Shown piece after piece: positions 55,166 through 63,915 of a stretch of DNA of 64,000 nt. Each line of letters starts with the position of its first letter. The stretch's first letter is position 1. The DNA comes from Candidatus Hydrothermarchaeum profundi (GTDB lineage: Archaea > Hydrothermarchaeota > Hydrothermarchaeia > Hydrothermarchaeales > Hydrothermarchaeaceae): NCBI GenBank assembly GCA_002011125.2, contig MTMF02000009.1:609095-673094 (forward strand). The letters run 5' to 3'. A program made the translations under genes and the position numbers. The notes under the pieces were generated by a model. It saw nothing but the letters and a program-made list of their open reading frames with translations. It was not told the DNA's origin and did no database searches.

Positions 55166-56092
55166 TCAGCTATGAGGAACATCCCAGAGATAACCTATCA
55201 TGCTAAGGACAATAAAGAATCCTATTATAATTAAGCCGATTATAGTTCTCTTTCTCTTTGTGGATTGGGTTTCTTTGCTTCTATCGATATAAGGAAGAAG
55301 CGTAAGCAACGAGGCCGTTAAGAGGAGTACCAAGATGTAAAGAAAGTTTAGCGAAGGGCTTAGAAACCCGATTCCTCTTTCTATCACGTACAGCCATAGG
55401 AACAGCCATATTGGCTTAAGTTGGGTTTGAAGTTCAGGACCAACTTTAGGAGATAGGCTAAAAGGCTCTATTACTGAATAAAGCAGAAGAAATCCCAATG
55501 TAATCATCCCAATACCAACTTCACTCCATTCGAGTTTTCTTTTCCTTACATAAGAGTAGTGAAGTGCCAGAAATATCATTGAAACAATTGGAAGAAACCC
55601 AATATGCATCATGTAAAATCTCGCTAGAGAACGGGAGGTTATCTCACTTCCCCCAAGCACTAGGCGTTCTAAAGCCCCTCCTACAAGTGGAGTATAGGCT
55701 ATTATTGAGGCAGTTACTCTGGCACTCCAATACCCTACTTCGTCCCATCTCAGGAGATAGCCTGAGAAAACAAATAAAACAGTTATAATCAAGAGCAATC
55801 CGCCCATGACCCAAGGCTTCTTATGAATCTTATAGGTTCCCATAAAGAAAACCCTAACCATGTGGAGAAGGATTGAGATGAGTAGAAGATGAGTAGACCA
55901 GTGATGAAGAGATAAGAGAATTTTCCCGAAATAGACATATTCTGAGATGTACTGGATGCTCTCGTAAGCCCTTTCTGGCGCGGGTTCATACCAAAAGCTA
56001 AGCAAGATTCCAGAAGATACGAGAATAACAGCATTTGTTACGCTAATAACACTAAACCAGTAGATAGGGTTAAATTCTTTGGACATTTTCAT
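55166..56092 (-). CDS. Cytochrome b (b6/subunit-IV-like fusion)
   Basis: 308 residues. Four N-terminal helices carry the expected heme ligands: H63 and H77 in helix B, H163 and H178 in helix D. The 15-residue helix D spacing is that of b6-type proteins. Three further helices correspond to subunit IV. The Qo-site PEWY motif is altered: KPIWLFLWLY at 226-235 has Ile in place of Glu. It is the membrane part of a quinol-cytochrome c oxidoreductase-like complex and is encoded with the Rieske protein (4-base overlap). Confidence 0.9.
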   Translation of the reverse strand: MKMSKEFNPIYWFSVISVTNAVILVSSGILLSFWYEPAPERAYESIQYISEYVYFGKILLSLHHWSTHLLLISILLHMVRVFFMGTYKIHKKPWVMGGLLLIITVLFVFSGYLLRWDEVGYWSARVTASIIAYTPLVGGALERLVLGGSEITSRSLARFYMMHIGFLPIVSMIFLALHYSYVRKRKLEWSEVGIGMITLGFLLLYSVIEPFSLSPKVGPELQTQLKPIWLFLWLYVIERGIGFLSPSLNFLYILVLLLTASLLTLLPYIDRSKETQSTKRKRTIIGLIIIGFFIVLSMIGYLWDVPHS

Positions 56093-56520
56093 TTCTCTGC
56101 GTAGACCTCGCCGTTCTTAACTTCTATCTTGATAGGCGTGAGTCCTCTAGGAGCTGGACCTGAAATCCTTTCACCAGTTACTGGATCAAAAGTTGAACCA
56201 TGGCATGGACACTCGAGTAAGCCTTTGCCGGGAAGTGCCCTGCCGCTCACGGGACACCCCATATGAGGGCAGGAGGCAAGAAAAGCATGTAGCCCTTGGT
56301 AGTTTACGAGAATACCGGGCTCTCCTAAGAAATCAAAGACTTTTACACTTCCTACCCTTATCTCGTCTACACTACCTATTAGAACAGACTCCTGAGGCGA
56401 AGAGTAAACTTGTTCTGGTGCTCCACGCTTTAGAAAATATACCGAACTTAAGAAAGAAAGACTGGTAATGGATACTACTATCTTAGCCATATACTCGAGG
56501 AACTTTCTTCTTTTCATCAC
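56089..56520 (-). CDS. Rieske iron-sulfur protein
   Basis: 143 residues. The N terminus KRRKFLEYMAKI plus a hydrophobic helix looks like a twin-arginine-type signal anchor. Cluster motifs are C84/H86/C89 (CPHMGC) and C104/C106/H107 (CPCHGS), where C84, H86, C104 and H107 hold the [2Fe-2S] and C89-C106 form the usual disulfide. It takes an electron from the quinol at cytochrome b and passes it to a cytochrome, here probably the multiheme protein encoded upstream. Confidence 0.95.
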   Translation of the reverse strand: MMKRRKFLEYMAKIVVSITSLSFLSSVYFLKRGAPEQVYSSPQESVLIGSVDEIRVGSVKVFDFLGEPGILVNYQGLHAFLASCPHMGCPVSGRALPGKGLLECPCHGSTFDPVTGERISGPAPRGLTPIKIEVKNGEVYAEK

Positions 56521-58307
56521 CTAAACCTCTTCATTAAGTAAACTAAAAAAATGACTCCCAGTAGAGCCATTAAAAAGATATATTCTAGAAAAGGCCTAAC
56601 GTTAAGATATTTTGGATTTATGACTCTGTGAGAATCAGAGTGGCAGTTTACACACTCATCCGGCTCAGTTTCCCTATCTTTTTCAGGGAGGCCTAAATCG
56701 TCAGGAGCATTCCACTCTAACCCAAAAAGCCAAGGAGCGAAGTTCACAGTATAAGGAAGAGCATTTTCATCTATCTCGGAGGTATTTCTAATATTAATTA
56801 TAAACAACCCCGAAGAATTGGCTACAATCTCGTGTCCGCCATATACCGGGAAATTCAGCACAGGATAAATGTGCGAATCTTTTGTTCCGAATAGAACCCA
56901 CGTCGCCTTTGCCCGTTGCTCAGATGCGTTATGGCAGCTTATACAATCCCTAGCCTTACCGAAGCCGTGGGAAACTTTGTCCATATGGATCCAAAGTATG
57001 GCTTTATTGTTGCTTGGCAAGCTATCTATCGTTCCTACTATTGCATAGGCATCTCTAGATTTTTCTCTTATGCCTGGGATGTTTCTGAATTTTATGCCTG
57101 TTTGATTTAACTCAAATTTTTGATTAAAAACAGCATGAGGTACAGGTTTAACAGGTATCCATATACCCTTTTGATCTCGAATCAAAATAGGCTCCGATAA
57201 AGCTCCATAGTATGCTATTTTGGTTAGCGGATTTAGCTGGCCATAGAAGCTTCCGTTATTCCAAAAGACCATTTGATATCCTCCCAATTCCTGGATGTGG
57301 CATGCTTCACAGGAAACTTTTTCATGAACACTTTTCTTTATCTCTTTCTCAATTTCCAAGTGGCAGTTACCACATGTAGCTTCTCTGGAGATATTGTGGT
57401 CCTGATATATGTGACAATCTAGGCAACTTAAATTCTCTTCAAAATGTATGTCCGGTGGGAGGAAAGGTATAGAAGATTCTTGACGGTAAAATCCAGCTCC
57501 TCTACGATAGTCTTCAGCTCCTACATGACATATGCCTCTTCCTCCTCCAAGACCACAGCTTTCTGCGGGTGGCCTCTTGTTAAAAAAATGTCTTCCTTCA
57601 GCAGGATTATAATGGCAGTCAAGACAGGAGGTATGGCACTGCTGGCATGCACGTTCATTTAGCTTTGCTTGTTCTATCGTATAGTCGGTTGATAGGGTCT
57701 CTGCAATGGTATCTAAGTTCTTAAGCCAGTAGCCACAGTCATGTGGCCCCATCGGTGGAGTAACGAAATCTGAGTACTGTCTCTGCGTCAGCGTAAGTCC
57801 CATCGGCGTTGTTAGAAAATCTTTCAGTTCTTTGGGGTGACACTTGCCGCAAGTAGCATTAGCTATGGAAGGACTAAAGGCAAGAGTTATTGGGTCTCTA
57901 TCATGGTAGAGTACGCTTCTTATCTCGAAATTTGGGAAAAAAAGATAAGGAGGCTCTGACCGCTGGGGAACCAACGCAGGTAAGATCTTATACCTATCTT
58001 CTACAGGTTTAACTCTCTCCTTAGATATAACTAGAAGTCTAGGCATTCCTTCGTGAGCCCCTATGAGTGTTTTATTTTCAGGATTTCCTAGGTGGCAGTC
58101 TTGGCAGTTTGGTCCGCCTAAGCCTAACCTAAACATCTTGCTCTCTTTCCAAACTTCTTCATTTGTGAAATAAAACTGTGGAAAACCCAGCTCTTCCAGT
58201 CTACTCTGGTTAGAATGGCACTCTATACAACTATTTTGAGCGTAAGCCAGCCCGATTACCCATATATAAATGAAGATAATCGCCTTTTTCATACTACCCT
58301 TTCTCAT
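56517..58307 (-). CDS. Multiheme cytochrome c, ten CxxCH plus one CX8CH
   Basis: 596 residues with an N-terminal signal sequence and a C-terminal membrane helix (about 573-592), so the heme domain lies outside the cell. Ten CxxCH motifs were counted: CIECH, CQDCH, CGKCH, CQQCH, CLDCH (twice), CGNCH, CEACH, CISCH and CVNCH. An eleventh, CGLGGGRGICH, has eight residues between the cysteines. There are further conserved His residues that may serve as distal ligands. It takes the place of cytochrome c1/f in the operon thioredoxin-multiheme-Rieske-cytochrome b. M6 (58292) with an AAGGG upstream is an alternative start. Confidence 0.93.
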   Translation of the reverse strand: MRKGSMKKAIIFIYIWVIGLAYAQNSCIECHSNQSRLEELGFPQFYFTNEEVWKESKMFRLGLGGPNCQDCHLGNPENKTLIGAHEGMPRLLVISKERVKPVEDRYKILPALVPQRSEPPYLFFPNFEIRSVLYHDRDPITLAFSPSIANATCGKCHPKELKDFLTTPMGLTLTQRQYSDFVTPPMGPHDCGYWLKNLDTIAETLSTDYTIEQAKLNERACQQCHTSCLDCHYNPAEGRHFFNKRPPAESCGLGGGRGICHVGAEDYRRGAGFYRQESSIPFLPPDIHFEENLSCLDCHIYQDHNISREATCGNCHLEIEKEIKKSVHEKVSCEACHIQELGGYQMVFWNNGSFYGQLNPLTKIAYYGALSEPILIRDQKGIWIPVKPVPHAVFNQKFELNQTGIKFRNIPGIREKSRDAYAIVGTIDSLPSNNKAILWIHMDKVSHGFGKARDCISCHNASEQRAKATWVLFGTKDSHIYPVLNFPVYGGHEIVANSSGLFIINIRNTSEIDENALPYTVNFAPWLFGLEWNAPDDLGLPEKDRETEPDECVNCHSDSHRVINPKYLNVRPFLEYIFLMALLGVIFLVYLMKRFR

Positions 58308-58708
58308 TTAAGGAGTAATTCTATTTCTCTCTCCATTCCCTTCTTACTTAAGTAGCCTATGAACTTCTTTTCAACCTCCCCCTTATTATTAAAGAAAACA
58401 AATGCTGGAAGGCTATCTATCCCATATTTTTGTGCCAGCTCTTTTTCTTCATCAAAGTTTGCGGTGAGGAAATTTACTTTCCCGCTATACTCTTTTTTCA
58501 GCTCTCTCATAGTTGGAAGCATTTCCCAACAGTAGATACACCAGTCTGCAGCGAATTCAAGCACAATGGGATTTCTGCTTGATAGGGCAGCTTCAAACTT
58601 TTCAGGTGAGTAGTCGTACTCTATTGACTCGCCAGCAGTTTTTTCAATAGATTTCTCGCTAGATATACATCCAACAAGAATTATTAGAAGAAGTATTATC
58701 TCTTTCAT
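58304..58708 (-). CDS. Thioredoxin-like lipoprotein
   Basis: 134 residues from ATG 58708 (MKEIILLLIILVGC), chosen because a lipoprotein signal with C14 follows at once; an upstream in-frame ATG at 58786 would precede the signal by 26 residues. The redox site is WCIYC (C57/C60), with GIDSLPAFVFF carrying the cis-proline. It probably reduces heme-binding cysteines or otherwise matures the multiheme protein. The stop overlaps the multiheme ATG (ATGA). Operon with Rieske and cytochrome b. Confidence 0.88.
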   Translation of the reverse strand: MKEIILLLIILVGCISSEKSIEKTAGESIEYDYSPEKFEAALSSRNPIVLEFAADWCIYCWEMLPTMRELKKEYSGKVNFLTANFDEEKELAQKYGIDSLPAFVFFNNKGEVEKKFIGYLSKKGMEREIELLLK

Positions 58709-58839
58709 TAAGGAGAAATAGTTTTTAGACGGATAAAAATTTTGCCAGAAAGAATAGTTTTGTGTAGATTTGGCATTATCGTGCATTAAATATACTTAAT
58801 ATGTCCTTTTTCCCACACAAACTATGGAAGAAGAAAAAA

Positions 58840-58900
58840 TTTATATATTGTTTAGGCAACCCCCTACTAGATTAGGTTAAAATTTTTGGATAGGAGGTGA
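58840..58900 (+). promoter_or_regulatory. Promoter and SD of the propeller lipoprotein
   Basis: TTTATATA at 58840-58847 is a TATA box, and GGAGGTGA at 58893-58900 is an unusually full Shine-Dalgarno sequence 4 bases before GTG 58905, supporting that start and strong translation. Confidence 0.65.
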
Positions 58901-58904
58901 AGAA

Positions 58905-60140
58905 GTGAAATATATTTTCAGCGCTACCTTTGTCGCTCTGTTGTTTATGGCCGTACTAGCATCGGGATGCATAGGGGGGGAAAAAGCAGCACCATCTGAA
59001 ACAGTAGCTCCTGAAGAAACTGCCCCGCCGGCTGTAACACTAGCTAAAGGAAGAGCTTTCACAGCGGGGCATGGGGGACACTTAGCGGTTATAGATTTTG
59101 CGATAAATCCTAAAACTAAGGAATTTACAATATATAGCATAGGTAGGTTGGTGGCATATAGTCCTGATGGAAAAAAATACGGTGCAGAGAAAGCTTCTCA
59201 TACAGTGTCTCTTTCTAAGGATGGCAAAACTCTCTACTGGGCGGCATTAGATGGAACGATAACTGAGATTGATCTGGATGCGGTAGGATTGACTCTAGAT
59301 AAGGCTCCAGTAGGCACTCTGAAAGAATGGAGGACTTATAAGGCAAAGGATGTTGAGTGGGCTGAATTAGGTGGAGAAACTGATAATCTCCATTGTGGTT
59401 CAAGTCTAAGTCCTGATGGAAAGACGCTCTATGTTTCCAGTATAGGCAGCGGTGCAGTGCTCGTATATGATACCACAACGCATAAAAAAGTGGACAAAAT
59501 ACCTGTAGATGCGTTTGGTTGTACTGCTGAAGTTACCCCGGATGGCAAATACTTATACTTCGCAAATATGGCGGCAGGCGTAGTCGACAAAGTTGACCTT
59601 TCTACTAGGGAGATCGTTAAGAAAATAGATACTACACAATACAATGGATATTTCTTGCATATAGGAGAGTTAGCGCCTGATGGTAGATACCTCTGGCAGA
59701 CTGCGGCTAATGAATTTAAGGAAGGTAAGCCATACAATATACCCATCGAAGGAGCTTCAGGCATAGGCCAGGGCTATGTGATAATAATAGATACGGTGAA
59801 TGATAAAGTCGTAGATGCACTTAATGTCCCAGGTAACCCGCATGATGTGACCTTTACTAAAGATGGAAGGTTTGCCATTCTTTCAGCGAGGCATCTGCCT
59901 GAGAATCCAACTAGTAGTGGCTTAGTCCTTGTTGATACTACTGAGAAAAAAGTTATCAGCGAGCATGATGTTTGTGGAGCATGTCATGATGAACTAGGTG
60001 CTGATGTCAGCGAGTTTATAGATCCTGAGACTCAAGTGCTAACGAATCTAGGCTTGCTTGAACATCCTGAAACCGGACTCGCTTTGGCTTGCGGTATAGA
60101 TATTACCTGGGAAAAGAGTACTACCTTAGGGTGCATGTAA
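58905..60140 (+). CDS. Beta-propeller lipoprotein with one c-type heme motif
   Basis: 411 residues from GTG 58905. Signal peptide with lipobox (LASGC, C22), a Pro/Glu/Ala-rich linker, then a YVTN-like beta-propeller with repeated SPDGKTLY / TPDGKYLY / APDGRYLW / TKDGRFAI blades, and a CxxCH site at C357/C360/H361 near the C terminus (VCGACHDELG). The propeller plus heme recalls heme-d1 and nitrous-oxide reductase-type folds, but the diagnostic residues of NirS and NosZ were not found. A secreted redox protein, maybe the partner of the divergent cytochrome operon. Ended by a hairpin terminator. Confidence 0.85.
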   Translation: MKYIFSATFVALLFMAVLASGCIGGEKAAPSETVAPEETAPPAVTLAKGRAFTAGHGGHLAVIDFAINPKTKEFTIYSIGRLVAYSPDGKKYGAEKASHTVSLSKDGKTLYWAALDGTITEIDLDAVGLTLDKAPVGTLKEWRTYKAKDVEWAELGGETDNLHCGSSLSPDGKTLYVSSIGSGAVLVYDTTTHKKVDKIPVDAFGCTAEVTPDGKYLYFANMAAGVVDKVDLSTREIVKKIDTTQYNGYFLHIGELAPDGRYLWQTAANEFKEGKPYNIPIEGASGIGQGYVIIIDTVNDKVVDALNVPGNPHDVTFTKDGRFAILSARHLPENPTSSGLVLVDTTEKKVISEHDVCGACHDELGADVSEFIDPETQVLTNLGLLEHPETGLALACGIDITWEKSTTLGCM

Positions 60141-60209: not shown

Positions 60210-61427
60210 ATGGAAAAATTGAGCTTAACGTATGTAGCAAGGAAAAATATTAAGCGAAAGCTCTTTCGCAGTATTGCGTTAATACTAGCGGTAGGTATAG
60301 CAACTGGGGCTCTGTTTTCGAGTATTCTTATAATGAAAAGTGTGGAGCGTGGTTCTAAGACTGCTGTCTCCATGTTAGGGGCAGATTTAATGGTAGCACC
60401 TACTGGTTATGAAGCTGCGGCAAGAAGTTCTTTACTGGCTGGAGAACCACAGACCTTCTATATGGATCGCTCTATAGAAGAAAAAATAGCTAAGATAGAT
60501 GGCGTTGAAAAAACTTCATCACAAGTTTACGCGGAGACCTCTTCTTATCCCTGCTGTGGATTTAGGAAATCCTTTTTAGTCGGGTTTGATCCGAAAACGG
60601 ATTTCACCGTCATGCCTTGGCTTAATAAAAAATTAGATAGGCCTTTTGGTGGGAATGATGTTATAATAGGCAGCGAGATTCCGGCTTACCCTGGATTTAC
60701 AACCTATGTGCATGGTCATGAGTTAACAATATGGGGGACTCTTCATCGCACAGGTCTGAAATATTTTGATAACACCATTTTTATTCCTATCGAGACTCTC
60801 TATAAAATAGCCGAGGAAACTAGGCTGAATAGCAATGTAGCACCATTAGAAATCAACCGAAATCAAATTTCTGTAGTACTTGTTAAAGGAGAAGAGAAAG
60901 TCAGGCCAGACGTGTTAGAAGTTAGAATCGAAGGAAGAGTGCCCGGCGTTATTGCAATTCCTGTTGAGAGCGTAGTTCATACGGTTAAAATACAGGTTTC
61001 CTCTCTTTTTGGGAGCCTCTTCATTTTATCAGCGGTTTTGTGGGTTGCTAATACTCTTATGATTAGCGCTATTTTTTCTACGATCGTTTCTGAGAGGCAG
61101 AGGGAGCTGGGTATTCTTAGGGCGATTGGGGCTGATAGGAACGCGGTTTTTAGGCTTATAATATTGGAGGCGGTTATCTTAACAAGCATCGGAGGCATAC
61201 TCGGAATAGCTTCTGGCCAGCTTATATTTTTAGCATTTAAAAATAGTATAACATCATCATTTACTTCTTTAAAAATACCATATATATGGCCTAGTGCCGT
61301 GAACATTTTGATGATTTCTCTGCTGAGTTTTATATCCGCGGTTAGTATGGGCGTCTTTGGGGCCATTTACCCAGCATTCAATAGCACTAAAATGGAGCCT
61401 TATCTAGCAATTAGGGCCGGTGAGTGA
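60210..61427 (+). CDS. FtsX/MacB-type ABC transporter permease (first)
   Basis: 405 residues. One N-terminal helix, a periplasm-side MacB_PCD domain (about 45-260) and three C-terminal helices of the FtsX fold. The segment FSTIVSERQRELGILRAIGA is the typical coupling motif. It belongs with the following ATPase and second permease. Residues 274-333, the coupling part, are encoded by DNA identical to that of the second permease. Confidence 0.9.
   Translation: MEKLSLTYVARKNIKRKLFRSIALILAVGIATGALFSSILIMKSVERGSKTAVSMLGADLMVAPTGYEAAARSSLLAGEPQTFYMDRSIEEKIAKIDGVEKTSSQVYAETSSYPCCGFRKSFLVGFDPKTDFTVMPWLNKKLDRPFGGNDVIIGSEIPAYPGFTTYVHGHELTIWGTLHRTGLKYFDNTIFIPIETLYKIAEETRLNSNVAPLEINRNQISVVLVKGEEKVRPDVLEVRIEGRVPGVIAIPVESVVHTVKIQVSSLFGSLFILSAVLWVANTLMISAIFSTIVSERQRELGILRAIGADRNAVFRLIILEAVILTSIGGILGIASGQLIFLAFKNSITSSFTSLKIPYIWPSAVNILMISLLSFISAVSMGVFGAIYPAFNSTKMEPYLAIRAGE
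61029..61210 (+). repeat. 182-bp perfect repeat, copy 1 (in first FtsX permease)
   Basis: Bases 61029-61210 equal 62924-63105 at every position, whereas the flanks of the two genes differ. Offset 1895 bases, same orientation. Confidence 0.95.
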
Positions 61428-61428
61428 A

Positions 61429-62106
61429 ATGATAGTTACAGAAAATCTGACTAAAATATATAGGGTTGGAGACAGGGATATAGAGGCAGTCATTGATGTA
61501 GGACTTAGAATTAGTGATAATGAATTCGTATCTATTGTAGGCCATTCTGGTAGTGGGAAGACAACATTATTAAGCATGATAGGCGGTCTTACAAGGCCGA
61601 CTAAAGGGAAAGTGTTTGTAGATGGTATAGATATTTGGTCGCTAGGAGATAAGGAACTTTCTAAGTTGAGGAATGAGAAGATCGGGTTTATTTTTCAGTT
61701 CTCAAGTCTAATACCTACTTTAACCGCACTTGAAAATGTCATGCTACCGGCGACCTTCAGCCAAAATAAGAAAAAAGAGGTGGCTATACGAGCTGAAGAA
61801 ATGCTTGATCTTGTAGAACTCTCTCATAGGATCGATTCTTATCCATCACAACTTTCAGGAGGTGAGCAGAGGAGAGTTGCCATAGCTAGGGCGTTAGTAA
61901 ATAAGCCAAAGATAATTCTCGCAGATGAGCCGACAGGCGATTTAGATCATGAAACGGAAAAAGATGTAATAGACCTCTTTCTCAAAATAAATAAAGAATT
62001 TAATACGACTTTTTTGCTCGTAACTCACAACATAGAATTAGCCATGAAGGCTGATAGAAAATTAGTGATGGATCAAGGTAAAATAATAGAAGATCCAAAT
62101 GACTAG
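61429..62106 (+). CDS. ABC transporter ATPase (MacB/LolD type)
   Basis: 225 residues from ATG 61429, with GGTGAG just upstream; a GTG at 61420 would add three residues. Walker A is GHSGSGKTT, the signature LSGGEQRRVAIARAL, Walker B ILADEPTGDLD, and the His switch THN. This close LolD/MacB-type ATPase drives the two flanking FtsX-like permeases in mechanotransmission rather than classical transport. The end overlaps the second permease by 8 bases. Confidence 0.95.
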   Translation: MIVTENLTKIYRVGDRDIEAVIDVGLRISDNEFVSIVGHSGSGKTTLLSMIGGLTRPTKGKVFVDGIDIWSLGDKELSKLRNEKIGFIFQFSSLIPTLTALENVMLPATFSQNKKKEVAIRAEEMLDLVELSHRIDSYPSQLSGGEQRRVAIARALVNKPKIILADEPTGDLDHETEKDVIDLFLKINKEFNTTFLLVTHNIELAMKADRKLVMDQGKIIEDPND

Positions 62107-63322
62107 TGTAAGTTTGTCTTATTTAGCACGAAGAAATATAGTTCGCAAATCTTTCCGGAGTATTGTACTTATATTTGCGGTGAGCATCTCAGTCGGCGTC
62201 TTATTCTCTACCACTTTGATGCTTAAAAGCATCGATAAAGGAATAAAAGTGGAAATGGAGAGGTTAGGGGCAGACTTACTTGTGGCTCCGGTAGGATATG
62301 AAGCTAAGGCCCGTACAGTACTTGTTAGTGGAGAGCCGCAAATATTCTATATGGGCGAAGAAGTTGTTGATAAAATAATAGCTATTCCAGGGGTTGTAGC
62401 TGCTTCTCCGCAGATTTTTATGGAAACCTCTTCTTATTTGCTGTGTTGCGAGATTTTAGAAACTTTGTTAGTCGGGTTTGACCCAGAAACAGACTTTACA
62501 GTGACCCCATGGATAGAGTCTAGGGTAGATGGGCCTATTGATTATGAGCGTGACATTATTACAGGAGGGATGGTGGCTGTGTATGAAGGATATGCATATT
62601 ATATCTACGGACAGGAGTTTAGAGTTTATGCGAGACTTCAGAAGACAGGGTTAAATTATTTTGATAGGACGATCTTTATCCCTCGAGCTCGAGCATATAA
62701 GTTGGCACAGCAAACAAAAGAGAGGAAAGGGGTAGCTCCACTGAAATTATCTTCTGGAGATGTCTCGATTGTTTTAGTGAGAGTTTCGCCTAATGCGAAT
62801 GTAACAAAAATAGCGGAACAGATAAAGAGAGATATCCCTGATGTAAGTGTTTTAAAGATACAGGATATGCTTGCAAATACTAAACAGATATTCCTTAAAT
62901 TGTTTGGAGGCTTACTAGTATTTTCAGCGGTTTTGTGGGTTGCTAATACTCTTATGATTAGCGCTATTTTTTCTACGATCGTTTCTGAGAGGCAGAGGGA
63001 GCTGGGTATTCTTAGGGCGATTGGGGCTGATAGGAACGCGGTTTTTAGGCTTATAATATTGGAGGCGGTTATCTTAACAAGCATCGGAGGCATACTCGGA
63101 ATAGCCGTGGGAAGTATTACTTTTACTATTTTTAAGAGCCATATATTATCCTCTTTTACTATGCTTAAGTTCCCTTATATCTGGCCTTCCTCTCCTGAAA
63201 TTTTGGCAATCGGTTTAGGTAGCTTCTTGGCATCCCTAGCTATGGGGATTATTGGAGCATTATATCCTGGCTTTATATCTACAAAATTAGAGCCATATTT
63301 TGCAATAAGAAAAGGAGAATAA
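62099..63322 (+). CDS. FtsX/MacB-type ABC transporter permease (second)
   Basis: 407 residues, paralogous to the first permease over the whole length. One N-terminal helix, an extracytoplasmic MacB_PCD part (with CC in SSYLLCCEILE, where the first copy has SSYPCCGFRK) and three C-terminal helices. A 182-bp block in the coupling region is identical to copy 1. The paired Cys residues in the extracytoplasmic part of both copies may bind metal. Unusual only in that both permeases come from the same operon and one recent conversion. Confidence 0.9.
   Translation: MTSVSLSYLARRNIVRKSFRSIVLIFAVSISVGVLFSTTLMLKSIDKGIKVEMERLGADLLVAPVGYEAKARTVLVSGEPQIFYMGEEVVDKIIAIPGVVAASPQIFMETSSYLLCCEILETLLVGFDPETDFTVTPWIESRVDGPIDYERDIITGGMVAVYEGYAYYIYGQEFRVYARLQKTGLNYFDRTIFIPRARAYKLAQQTKERKGVAPLKLSSGDVSIVLVRVSPNANVTKIAEQIKRDIPDVSVLKIQDMLANTKQIFLKLFGGLLVFSAVLWVANTLMISAIFSTIVSERQRELGILRAIGADRNAVFRLIILEAVILTSIGGILGIAVGSITFTIFKSHILSSFTMLKFPYIWPSSPEILAIGLGSFLASLAMGIIGALYPGFISTKLEPYFAIRKGE
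62924..63105 (+). repeat. 182-bp perfect repeat, copy 2 (in second FtsX permease)
   Basis: Identical to 61029-61210. It codes for the sequence running from SAVLWVANTLM to SIGGILGIA, the conserved C-terminal coupling helix and adjacent helices. Confidence 0.95.
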
Positions 63323-63348: not shown

Positions 63349-63744
63349 TTAAGAACGTTGGGCTTTTACTTCAACGCTGCCAAATTTTTCGAATTCTAAT
63401 ATGAGAGTTATCTCATCTTCTGAAGGATCAGCTCCAAATGCCATTATATGATAGCCGCCTCTTTTAAGTGGCACCGTTTCTCCTTTTGGAATCTCAATTT
63501 TATCAACCTTTAGCATCATTCCGCCTGCTATGGTATGAAGCTCTACTTTTGCATTTGGAAACTCCTTTATTTTAGCCGAGATTAGATTATCTGCTCCTCC
63601 ATGATTCTCTATAACCATAAAAATGGAGATAGCATTAGACATCCCGGAAGACATGAAATATACATCATGGACCTTGATCTCCGGAGGATTATTTATGCAT
63701 CCTGCTGCTACTATAAATATAGCGAGTAGAAGATATCTTCCCAT
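63349..63744 (-). CDS. PCu(A)C-like copper-chaperone lipoprotein
   Basis: 131 residues from ATG 63744 (MGRYLLLAIFIVAAGC), chosen because a lipobox with C16 follows; an in-frame ATG at 63783 precedes it. The Cu(I)-binding pattern MX21HXM is present exactly (M77, H99, M101), preceded by H70 in VELHT, as in the PCu(A)C family that loads CuA or other copper sites of respiratory enzymes. Convergent with the FtsX system. Its presence hints that a secreted copper protein is made by this cell. Confidence 0.8.
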   Translation of the reverse strand: MGRYLLLAIFIVAAGCINNPPEIKVHDVYFMSSGMSNAISIFMVIENHGGADNLISAKIKEFPNAKVELHTIAGGMMLKVDKIEIPKGETVPLKRGGYHIMAFGADPSEDEITLILEFEKFGSVEVKAQRS

Positions 63745-63915
63745 ATTGGTTGAATAAGCGTAGAATAATCTAGAAAATTTCATATTTCAGAGGCCCCTAA
63801 ATTGGATTTCTTTTATTCTTTATACGATTGATGTTTTAACTTTTTTGCTACTTACTGCTAAAAAGGCTCTGAGCTAGTCTTTAAATTTATTATATTCAGA
63901 AGAAATAATAAAAAA

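Follow-up and report, generated by a model that had tools for sequence, protein, structure and literature searches.

A Rieske/cytochrome b gene cluster with a lineage-specific multiheme cytochrome in Candidatus Hydrothermarchaeum profundi

Four overlapping genes and a divergent propeller gene

We analysed a stretch of 64,000 nucleotides (hereafter the window; G000:C9:609095-673094) of the 2.19 Mb, 97.7% complete archaeal genome of Candidatus Hydrothermarchaeum profundi, in which minus-strand genes encoding cytochrome b, a Rieske protein, a multiheme cytochrome (MHC) and a thioredoxin-fold lipoprotein stand divergently from the gene of a beta-propeller lipoprotein. The G+C content of the window is 38%. 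The locus comprises the following features, with positions counted from the first base of the window (TM, transmembrane segment):

55166-56092, minus strand: cytochrome b, b6 type fused to a subunit-IV-like C-terminus, 308 aa (PF00033, 120.9 bits; PF00032, 25.0 bits)
56089-56520, minus strand: Rieske [2Fe-2S] protein, 143 aa, one N-terminal TM (PF00355, 49.5 bits)
56517-58307, minus strand: MHC, 596 aa, with signal peptide, 10 CxxCH, one CX8CH and a C-terminal TM anchor (Pfam multiheme cytochrome, above cut-off)
57525-57557, minus strand: invariant CX8CH of the MHC, C251-H261, CGLGGGRGICH (alignment of 12 homologs)
57735-57737, minus strand: invariant lone Cys191 of the MHC, in PHDCGYW (12/12 homologs)
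58304-58786, minus strand: thioredoxin-fold lipoprotein, CxxC present as WCIYC (PF00085, 70.7 bits)
58787-58904, no strand: intergenic region between the divergent genes, holding a TATA-like, AT-rich stretch (AATTTATATATTG) and a ribosome-binding site GGAGG ahead of the propeller gene; putative promoter, by sequence reading
58905-60140, plus strand: beta-propeller lipoprotein, 411 aa, one CxxCH (59973-59987), PD40/Cytochrom_D1-type repeats

Consecutive minus-strand genes overlap by 4 bases (56089-56092, 56517-56520 and 58304-58307), and coordinates, start and stop codons and Pfam assignments all agree with the four-gene arrangement described in an initial annotation of this DNA. From these overlaps and the conserved gene order we infer that the four genes are co-transcribed. 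The thioredoxin lipoprotein probably starts at 58708 rather than at 58786, in view of a clean lipobox (LVGC). A sigma-70 promoter scan was disregarded as not meaningful for an archaeon. The divergent gene likewise encodes what had been announced, a lipoprotein with propeller repeats and a single CxxCH.

The multiheme cytochrome is found in a single archaeal class

The ten CxxCH motifs counted in the MHC lie far above chance expectation and bear out the ten hemes initially assigned to it; to these we add the CX8CH, which may be an atypical 11th heme site or another metal or sulfur site. Basic residues directly follow the C-terminal anchor. When 12 homologs from nine genomes were aligned, nine CxxCH were found to be kept, the first being absent only from one homolog whose gene was called at a start codon further downstream, and the tenth was absent from four paralogs. 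C251, C260 and H261 of the CX8CH motif are invariant, as is Cys191, a candidate axial or substrate ligand.

The MHC family was detected in nine of the 394 archaeal genomes searched, all inside the class of the window genome (23 genomes), and no relatives outside that class were found among the 394. A tblastn search of the MHC against plasmids gave no match, and a scan of genome contigs returned two loci, both from unclassified metagenome-assembled archaea. The nearest solved structures are NrfA-type cytochromes (E 1e-6 to 6v0a), with which one stretch of heme motifs aligns over about 90 residues. Unlike NrfA and the octaheme nitrite-type reductases, however, the MHC lacks the catalytic CxxCK heme, all its cysteine pairs being CxxCH or CX8CH, and its CX8CH and lone cysteine have no counterpart in NrfA. 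A second group of MHC paralogs (L026, L027, L028 and L029) has nine CxxCH, the CX8CH and a longer C-terminus; a LysR-like regulator lies near three of these four loci, and a TauE/SafE-like gene, scoring below the Pfam cut-off, near two.

Cytochrome, propeller and cytochrome b occur in the same genomes

The long-form MHC, the propeller and the fused cytochrome b are present in the same eight of the 23 class genomes (G000, which is the window genome, G007, G013, G014, G016, G017, G020 and G021), with a propeller fragment also in the incomplete G001. The chance of finding the eight MHC genomes within the nine propeller genomes is about 2e-5, ignoring shared ancestry. All of the eight except G017, which is 82% complete, also have Rieske relatives. 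The propeller lies beside the MHC or within a few genes of it in 8/8 genomes, a stronger link than the initial annotation had claimed. The conserved core is thus MHC plus propeller, and only in the window and in one other family does the Rieske-cytochrome b pair form part of that operon. That family is represented by G007, where a search of archaeal genomes for the gene order, as initially suggested, recovered MHC-Rieske-cytochrome b as in the window (48-58% identity).

Elsewhere the parts are arranged differently. In G013, G014, G016 and G017 the propeller gene is divergent from thioredoxin-MHC, after which comes the gene for the tetraether lipid synthase Tes, and cytochrome b stands apart, adjoining a three-heme lipoprotein. 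In G020 the order is FtsX-ABC-FtsX-propeller-DsrH-DsrE-DsrE-MHC-TusA-YeeE-YeeE, with cytochrome b nearby and an FtsX-Rieske pair on a separate contig; in G021 a PCuAC gene is divergent from ABC-FtsX-FtsX-Rieske-cytochrome b. The parts have been shuffled yet repeatedly re-linked, which supports a single functional module. As a separate observation, the four genomes of one genus (L020, L021, L022 and L023) all have tes directly after the MHC gene.

These distributions bear on the possibility that an ordinary bc-type complex is encoded by chance beside a cytochrome and a propeller that have nothing to do with it. Cytochrome b and Rieske are clear members of the bc family, and MHC and cytochrome b are unlinked in G013, G014, G016 and G017, but the overlapping operon is kept in two families, the co-occurrence in eight genomes is exact and the Qo motif change described below is specific to this cytochrome b clade; we therefore regard a chance neighbourhood as quite improbable.

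Cytochrome b carries an altered quinol-oxidation motif

The window cytochrome b has about seven TM and two heme-binding histidine pairs with b6-type spacing (His63/64-77 and 163-178), and the Rieske boxes are canonical (CPHMGC...CPCHGS, in agreement with CxHxGC and CxCHGS). The PEWY motif of the quinol-oxidation (Qo) site is missing from this cytochrome b, which reads PIWL instead. PIWL is shared with G007, and the other six genomes have PPWL, PPWM or PYWL, all of the form PxW[LM]. A tree built from 26 cytochromes b, of this class and of other archaea, places the eight fused proteins in one clade (support 100/99), separate from a Nar-linked type that is also encoded in the window genome. Since PEWY also varies among other accepted members of the bc complexes, its loss alone does not exclude membership, and on the Pfam matches and the tree both cytochrome b and Rieske are kin to the bc superfamily. 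The lost glutamate of PEWY suggests altered proton handling at the Qo site.

Sulfur-transfer genes recur around the module in relatives

The MHC gene lies between DsrE/F/H and TusA-YeeE-YeeE genes in G020, with the same arrangement in G021, and the G007 MHC operon is convergent with an island reading DsrE, YeeE, TusA, rhodanese, YeeE, TusA, DsrE, YeeE (TusA and rhodanese assigned by Pfam, the remaining genes named from their open reading frames). The Rieske gene is about 30 bases from TusA in G013, G014 and G016, and in G014 and G017 a distance of 2-3 kb separates dsrAB from propeller paralogs accompanied by FtsX. The window genome itself holds two dsrAB sets, DsrK, YeeE pairs and five TusA genes. 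Passages of PMC13293266 and PMC12998232 tie DsrEFH/TusA/YeeE genes to sulfur oxidation or disproportionation. A sulfur role of the module is likely from these neighbourhoods. From gene density, we estimate the chance of proximity to TusA at 0.2-3% per case.

In likeness to the YTD and DsrEFH type II sulfur-transfer clusters, YeeE/YedE, TusA and DsrE genes flank the MHC in G007, G020 and G021 (PMC13293266, PMC12998232). No mention of multiheme or Rieske proteins was found in this literature on those clusters.

A proposed electron route and its alternatives

Rieske/cytochrome b complexes oxidise quinol and hand one electron to a c-type heme. We consider, at a probability of about 50%, that the module encodes a non-canonical Rieske/cytochrome b complex with the MHC as its partner, probably serving respiratory sulfur metabolism. 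A modified complex with a multiheme partner, as put forward in the initial annotation, is well supported by the gene overlaps, the b-type histidine pairs, the Rieske motif, the anchored MHC and the gene order of G007. From the gene set, overlaps, motifs, co-occurrence and neighbourhoods observed here we infer a physical complex whose direction of electron flow, substrate and sulfur role may be pictured as follows. The complex would sit on the outer face of the archaeal membrane, where cytochrome b and Rieske would most likely oxidise menaquinol and the anchored ten- or eleven-heme MHC would replace cytochrome c1 or f as the electron partner of Rieske; because it is co-encoded and membrane-anchored, the MHC is the obvious candidate acceptor through which the electrons would leave. 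From there they might travel on to other cytochromes, to the heme of the propeller or to sulfur compounds, the MHC exchanging electrons with the heme-bearing propeller lipoprotein, and the host cells may move sulfane sulfur via YeeE/TusA/DsrE to the Dsr system. The module would probably be part of an undescribed route by which electrons move between the membrane on one side and outside acceptors or sulfur compounds on the other.

Several observations weigh against this proposal. The Qo motif is degenerate, and a normal Q-cycle is not assured. Cytochrome b lies outside the MHC operon in G013, G014, G016 and G017. The MHC could not be modelled: an AlphaFold2 model built from three sequences had a predicted local distance difference test (pLDDT) of 31 and was left out of the fold searches. 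No sulfur genes lie near the window copy, unlike in the YTD and DsrEFH type II clusters, the nearest TusA being about 80 kb off. Finally, TusA is present in 22 of the 23 class genomes in one to twelve copies, so that each single proximity is weak and some of them could be due to chance.

The initial annotation had electrons sent to the outside of the cell. Such a transfer is possible, as the window genome exceeds the background by about 230 CxxCH motifs and has giant cytochrome genes with at least 66 CxxCH in one and 33 in another (G000:C9:916-943 kb); what had been overlooked is the association with sulfur genes in relatives. In its full form this alternative would lead from menaquinol through Rieske/cytochrome b and the MHC to giant surface cytochromes and finally to a partner cell or Fe(III), sulfur having no particular part in it, and its design would resemble that of the Geobacter ext cluster and of Methanoperedens. 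It is challenged by the sulfur-gene neighbours that recur for MHC, Rieske and propeller in relatives and by the distance of the giant cytochromes, about 250 kb, and we consider it possible but unlikely. The giant cytochrome loci span L081 11461-L082 3235 and L082 11624-17731.

A search for terminal reductases beyond the window, also proposed initially, yielded candidates. An operon at G000:C8:32.1-42.0 kb (L031) encodes its own Rieske-cytochrome b6-subunit IV and a six-heme cytochrome together with a DMSO-reductase type II/Nar-like molybdoenzyme (alpha, beta, chaperone-like and EB_dh gamma), and a COX1/NorB-like protein, a two-heme cytochrome c and a ccoN-like protein adjoin the second, divergent dsrAB (G000:C9:122-128 kb; L100 7310-13435). 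The Nar-like operon, the COX1/NorB-like protein or the giant cytochromes could receive electrons from the module. According to passages of PMC6775978 and PMC6759336, the Hydrothermarchaeota genome JdFR-18 has 39.1% GC, an additional bacterial-like dsrA and multiheme cytochromes of up to 67 motifs; the 38% GC of the window, the two dsrA types of its genome and the giant cytochrome gene of at least 66 motifs agree with this, so that the class is most likely Hydrothermarchaeota.

Electrons might also flow in reverse, the propeller and/or the MHC oxidising reduced sulfur outside the cell and the electrons reaching quinones uphill via Rieske/cytochrome b or bypassing them to other cytochromes. The DsrEFH/TusA/YeeE genes beside the MHC, with the reported association mentioned above, would fit such a path, as would the altered Qo motif and the invariant lone Cys191, but the canonical Rieske motif and the b hemes suit forward quinol oxidation, the uphill path requires a high proton motive force and the substrate site is only putative. 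We consider reverse flow improbable. Comparably doubtful is a related proposal, an archaeal outlet of sulfur oxidation or disproportionation in which the MHC, with its CX8CH and invariant cysteine, and a metal- or heme-bearing propeller would act directly on sulfur species, exchanging electrons with quinones via a Rieske/cytochrome b that lacks the PEWY glutamate.

Comparison with known systems

The module shares with the bc1 and b6f complexes the histidine pairs and C-terminal domain of cytochrome b and the Rieske cluster motif. Unlike them, it has no mono-heme c1 or f, has lost PEWY and has a multiheme partner with a C-terminal anchor.

The Geobacter ext cluster extM-N-O-P-Q-S encodes a 12-heme cytochrome, a 10-heme cytochrome, Rieske, cytochrome b, a membrane protein and a 4-heme lipoprotein (PMC5877670). 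Its order ten-heme cytochrome-Rieske-cytochrome b is that of the window, and a further likeness is the rhodanese-like gene in the cluster, with a link to reduction of the chalcogen compounds selenite and tellurite (PMC5877670). The window system differs in being archaeal, in its fused cytochrome b, in lacking a porin and in having a different cytochrome. Membership in the ExtN/O/P families was rejected on NCBIfam scores under the cut-offs (ExtP 182/290 bits, ExtN 21/200 bits); the better ExtP match of the genome is the Rieske-b complex of the C8 operon, whose cytochrome b exceeds the cut-off (292.5 against 290 bits), and not the window cytochrome b.

The initial annotation likened the cluster to arrangements of ANME-2d and some Archaeoglobales. 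Passages of PMC4683180 describe Rieske/cytochrome b with multiheme (pentaheme) partners in Methanoperedens (ANME-2d), encoded together in a single expressed cluster. Both systems are archaeal and pair Rieske/cytochrome b with multiheme proteins, a likeness of design only, whereas the pentaheme proteins are linked to nitrate reduction and the MHC family was found only within its own class among the archaeal genomes searched. On that search of 394 genomes, the window system is not simply the arrangement of ANME-2d or Archaeoglobales.

The complex was not mentioned in the passages of the Hydrothermarchaeota genome literature covered (PMC6775978, PMC6759336 and PMC6946796), and the word 'Rieske' is absent from PMC6775978 and PMC6946796. 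The module is real and conserved, of uncertain function, and represents a bc version that appears undescribed in those passages, distinguished by its lineage-specific multiheme partner and its consistently altered quinol-oxidation motif. The module joins genes through which sulfur respiration and multiheme electron transfer in archaea can be put to the test, in a deep-sea lineage not yet in culture. Should the sulfur link prove true, they would provide concrete proteins for the passage of electrons to or from sulfur compounds in archaea with the Dsr pathway.

The propeller and the genes downstream of it

Judged by the neighbourhoods in relatives, the module extends to position 63783 and includes the genes that follow the propeller:

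60210-61427, plus strand: FtsX-type permease 1 (PF02687)
61420-62106, plus strand: ABC ATPase (PF00005)
62099-63322, plus strand: FtsX/MacB-type permease 2 (PF02687, PF12704)
63349-63783, minus strand: PCu(A)C copper-chaperone lipoprotein (PF04314, 58.8 bits)

FtsX/ABC genes recur with the propeller or Rieske-cytochrome b in G020 and G021, where the ABC ATPase is kept with FtsX, and FtsX alone does so in G014 and G017. The thioredoxin lipoprotein adjoins the MHC in five genomes. FtsX-ABC, PCuAC and the thioredoxin lipoprotein might act on the surface proteins of the module, in their export, copper loading or thiol chemistry.

The propeller matches several Pfam repeat families weakly; its Cytochrom_D1 match (29.1 bits, cut-off 25.5) covers only 86 residues and is equally well explained by a shared repeat type. 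Seven propellers have H59, H99, H313, D314 and R329 as invariant residues, and also C164, C206, C357, C360, H361 and C396. The AlphaFold2 model (pLDDT 65, predicted template modelling score 0.68) consists of all-beta blades. No fold-based family was assigned from it, as generic propellers score alike, and identity with N2O reductase was rejected, the L-NosZ match (48.9 bits against a cut-off of 700, about 60 residues) reflecting shared repeat similarity.

The propeller could also be a copper enzyme like thiocyanate dehydrogenase (TcDH), receiving copper from PCuAC, assembled by ABC/FtsX and using the MHC as acceptor. This would accord with a marginal match to 8q9x (E 0.0079, about 70 residues), a Foldseek probability of 1.00, the three invariant histidines plus HD, and the make-up of TcDH clusters, which share with the window a propeller, ABC permease/ATPase genes, a copper chaperone and, sometimes, a thioredoxin-fold neighbour. 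The invariant propeller histidines are at most candidate counterparts of the known copper-site residues (K103, H135, H136, H206, D314, H381, H437, H482, H528 and others), the model being too weak. We consider a TcDH-like enzyme very unlikely, because many unrelated propellers score equally or higher, a profile search over the whole propeller loses TcDH at E 0.01, leaving no convincing sequence match, and cyanase is absent from the module genomes (although thiocyanate-oxidising Thioalkalivibrio also lacks it). To our knowledge, the additional C-terminal heme motif is not part of any known TcDH, which counts further against this identity.

In one genus a gene of an unnamed family, about 185 aa long, comes after the propeller gene. 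Its relative in the window genome has as neighbours DsrE, TusA, a thioredoxin lipoprotein and a DsrMK-like pair (family members at L102 5109-5672 and L022 183-755).

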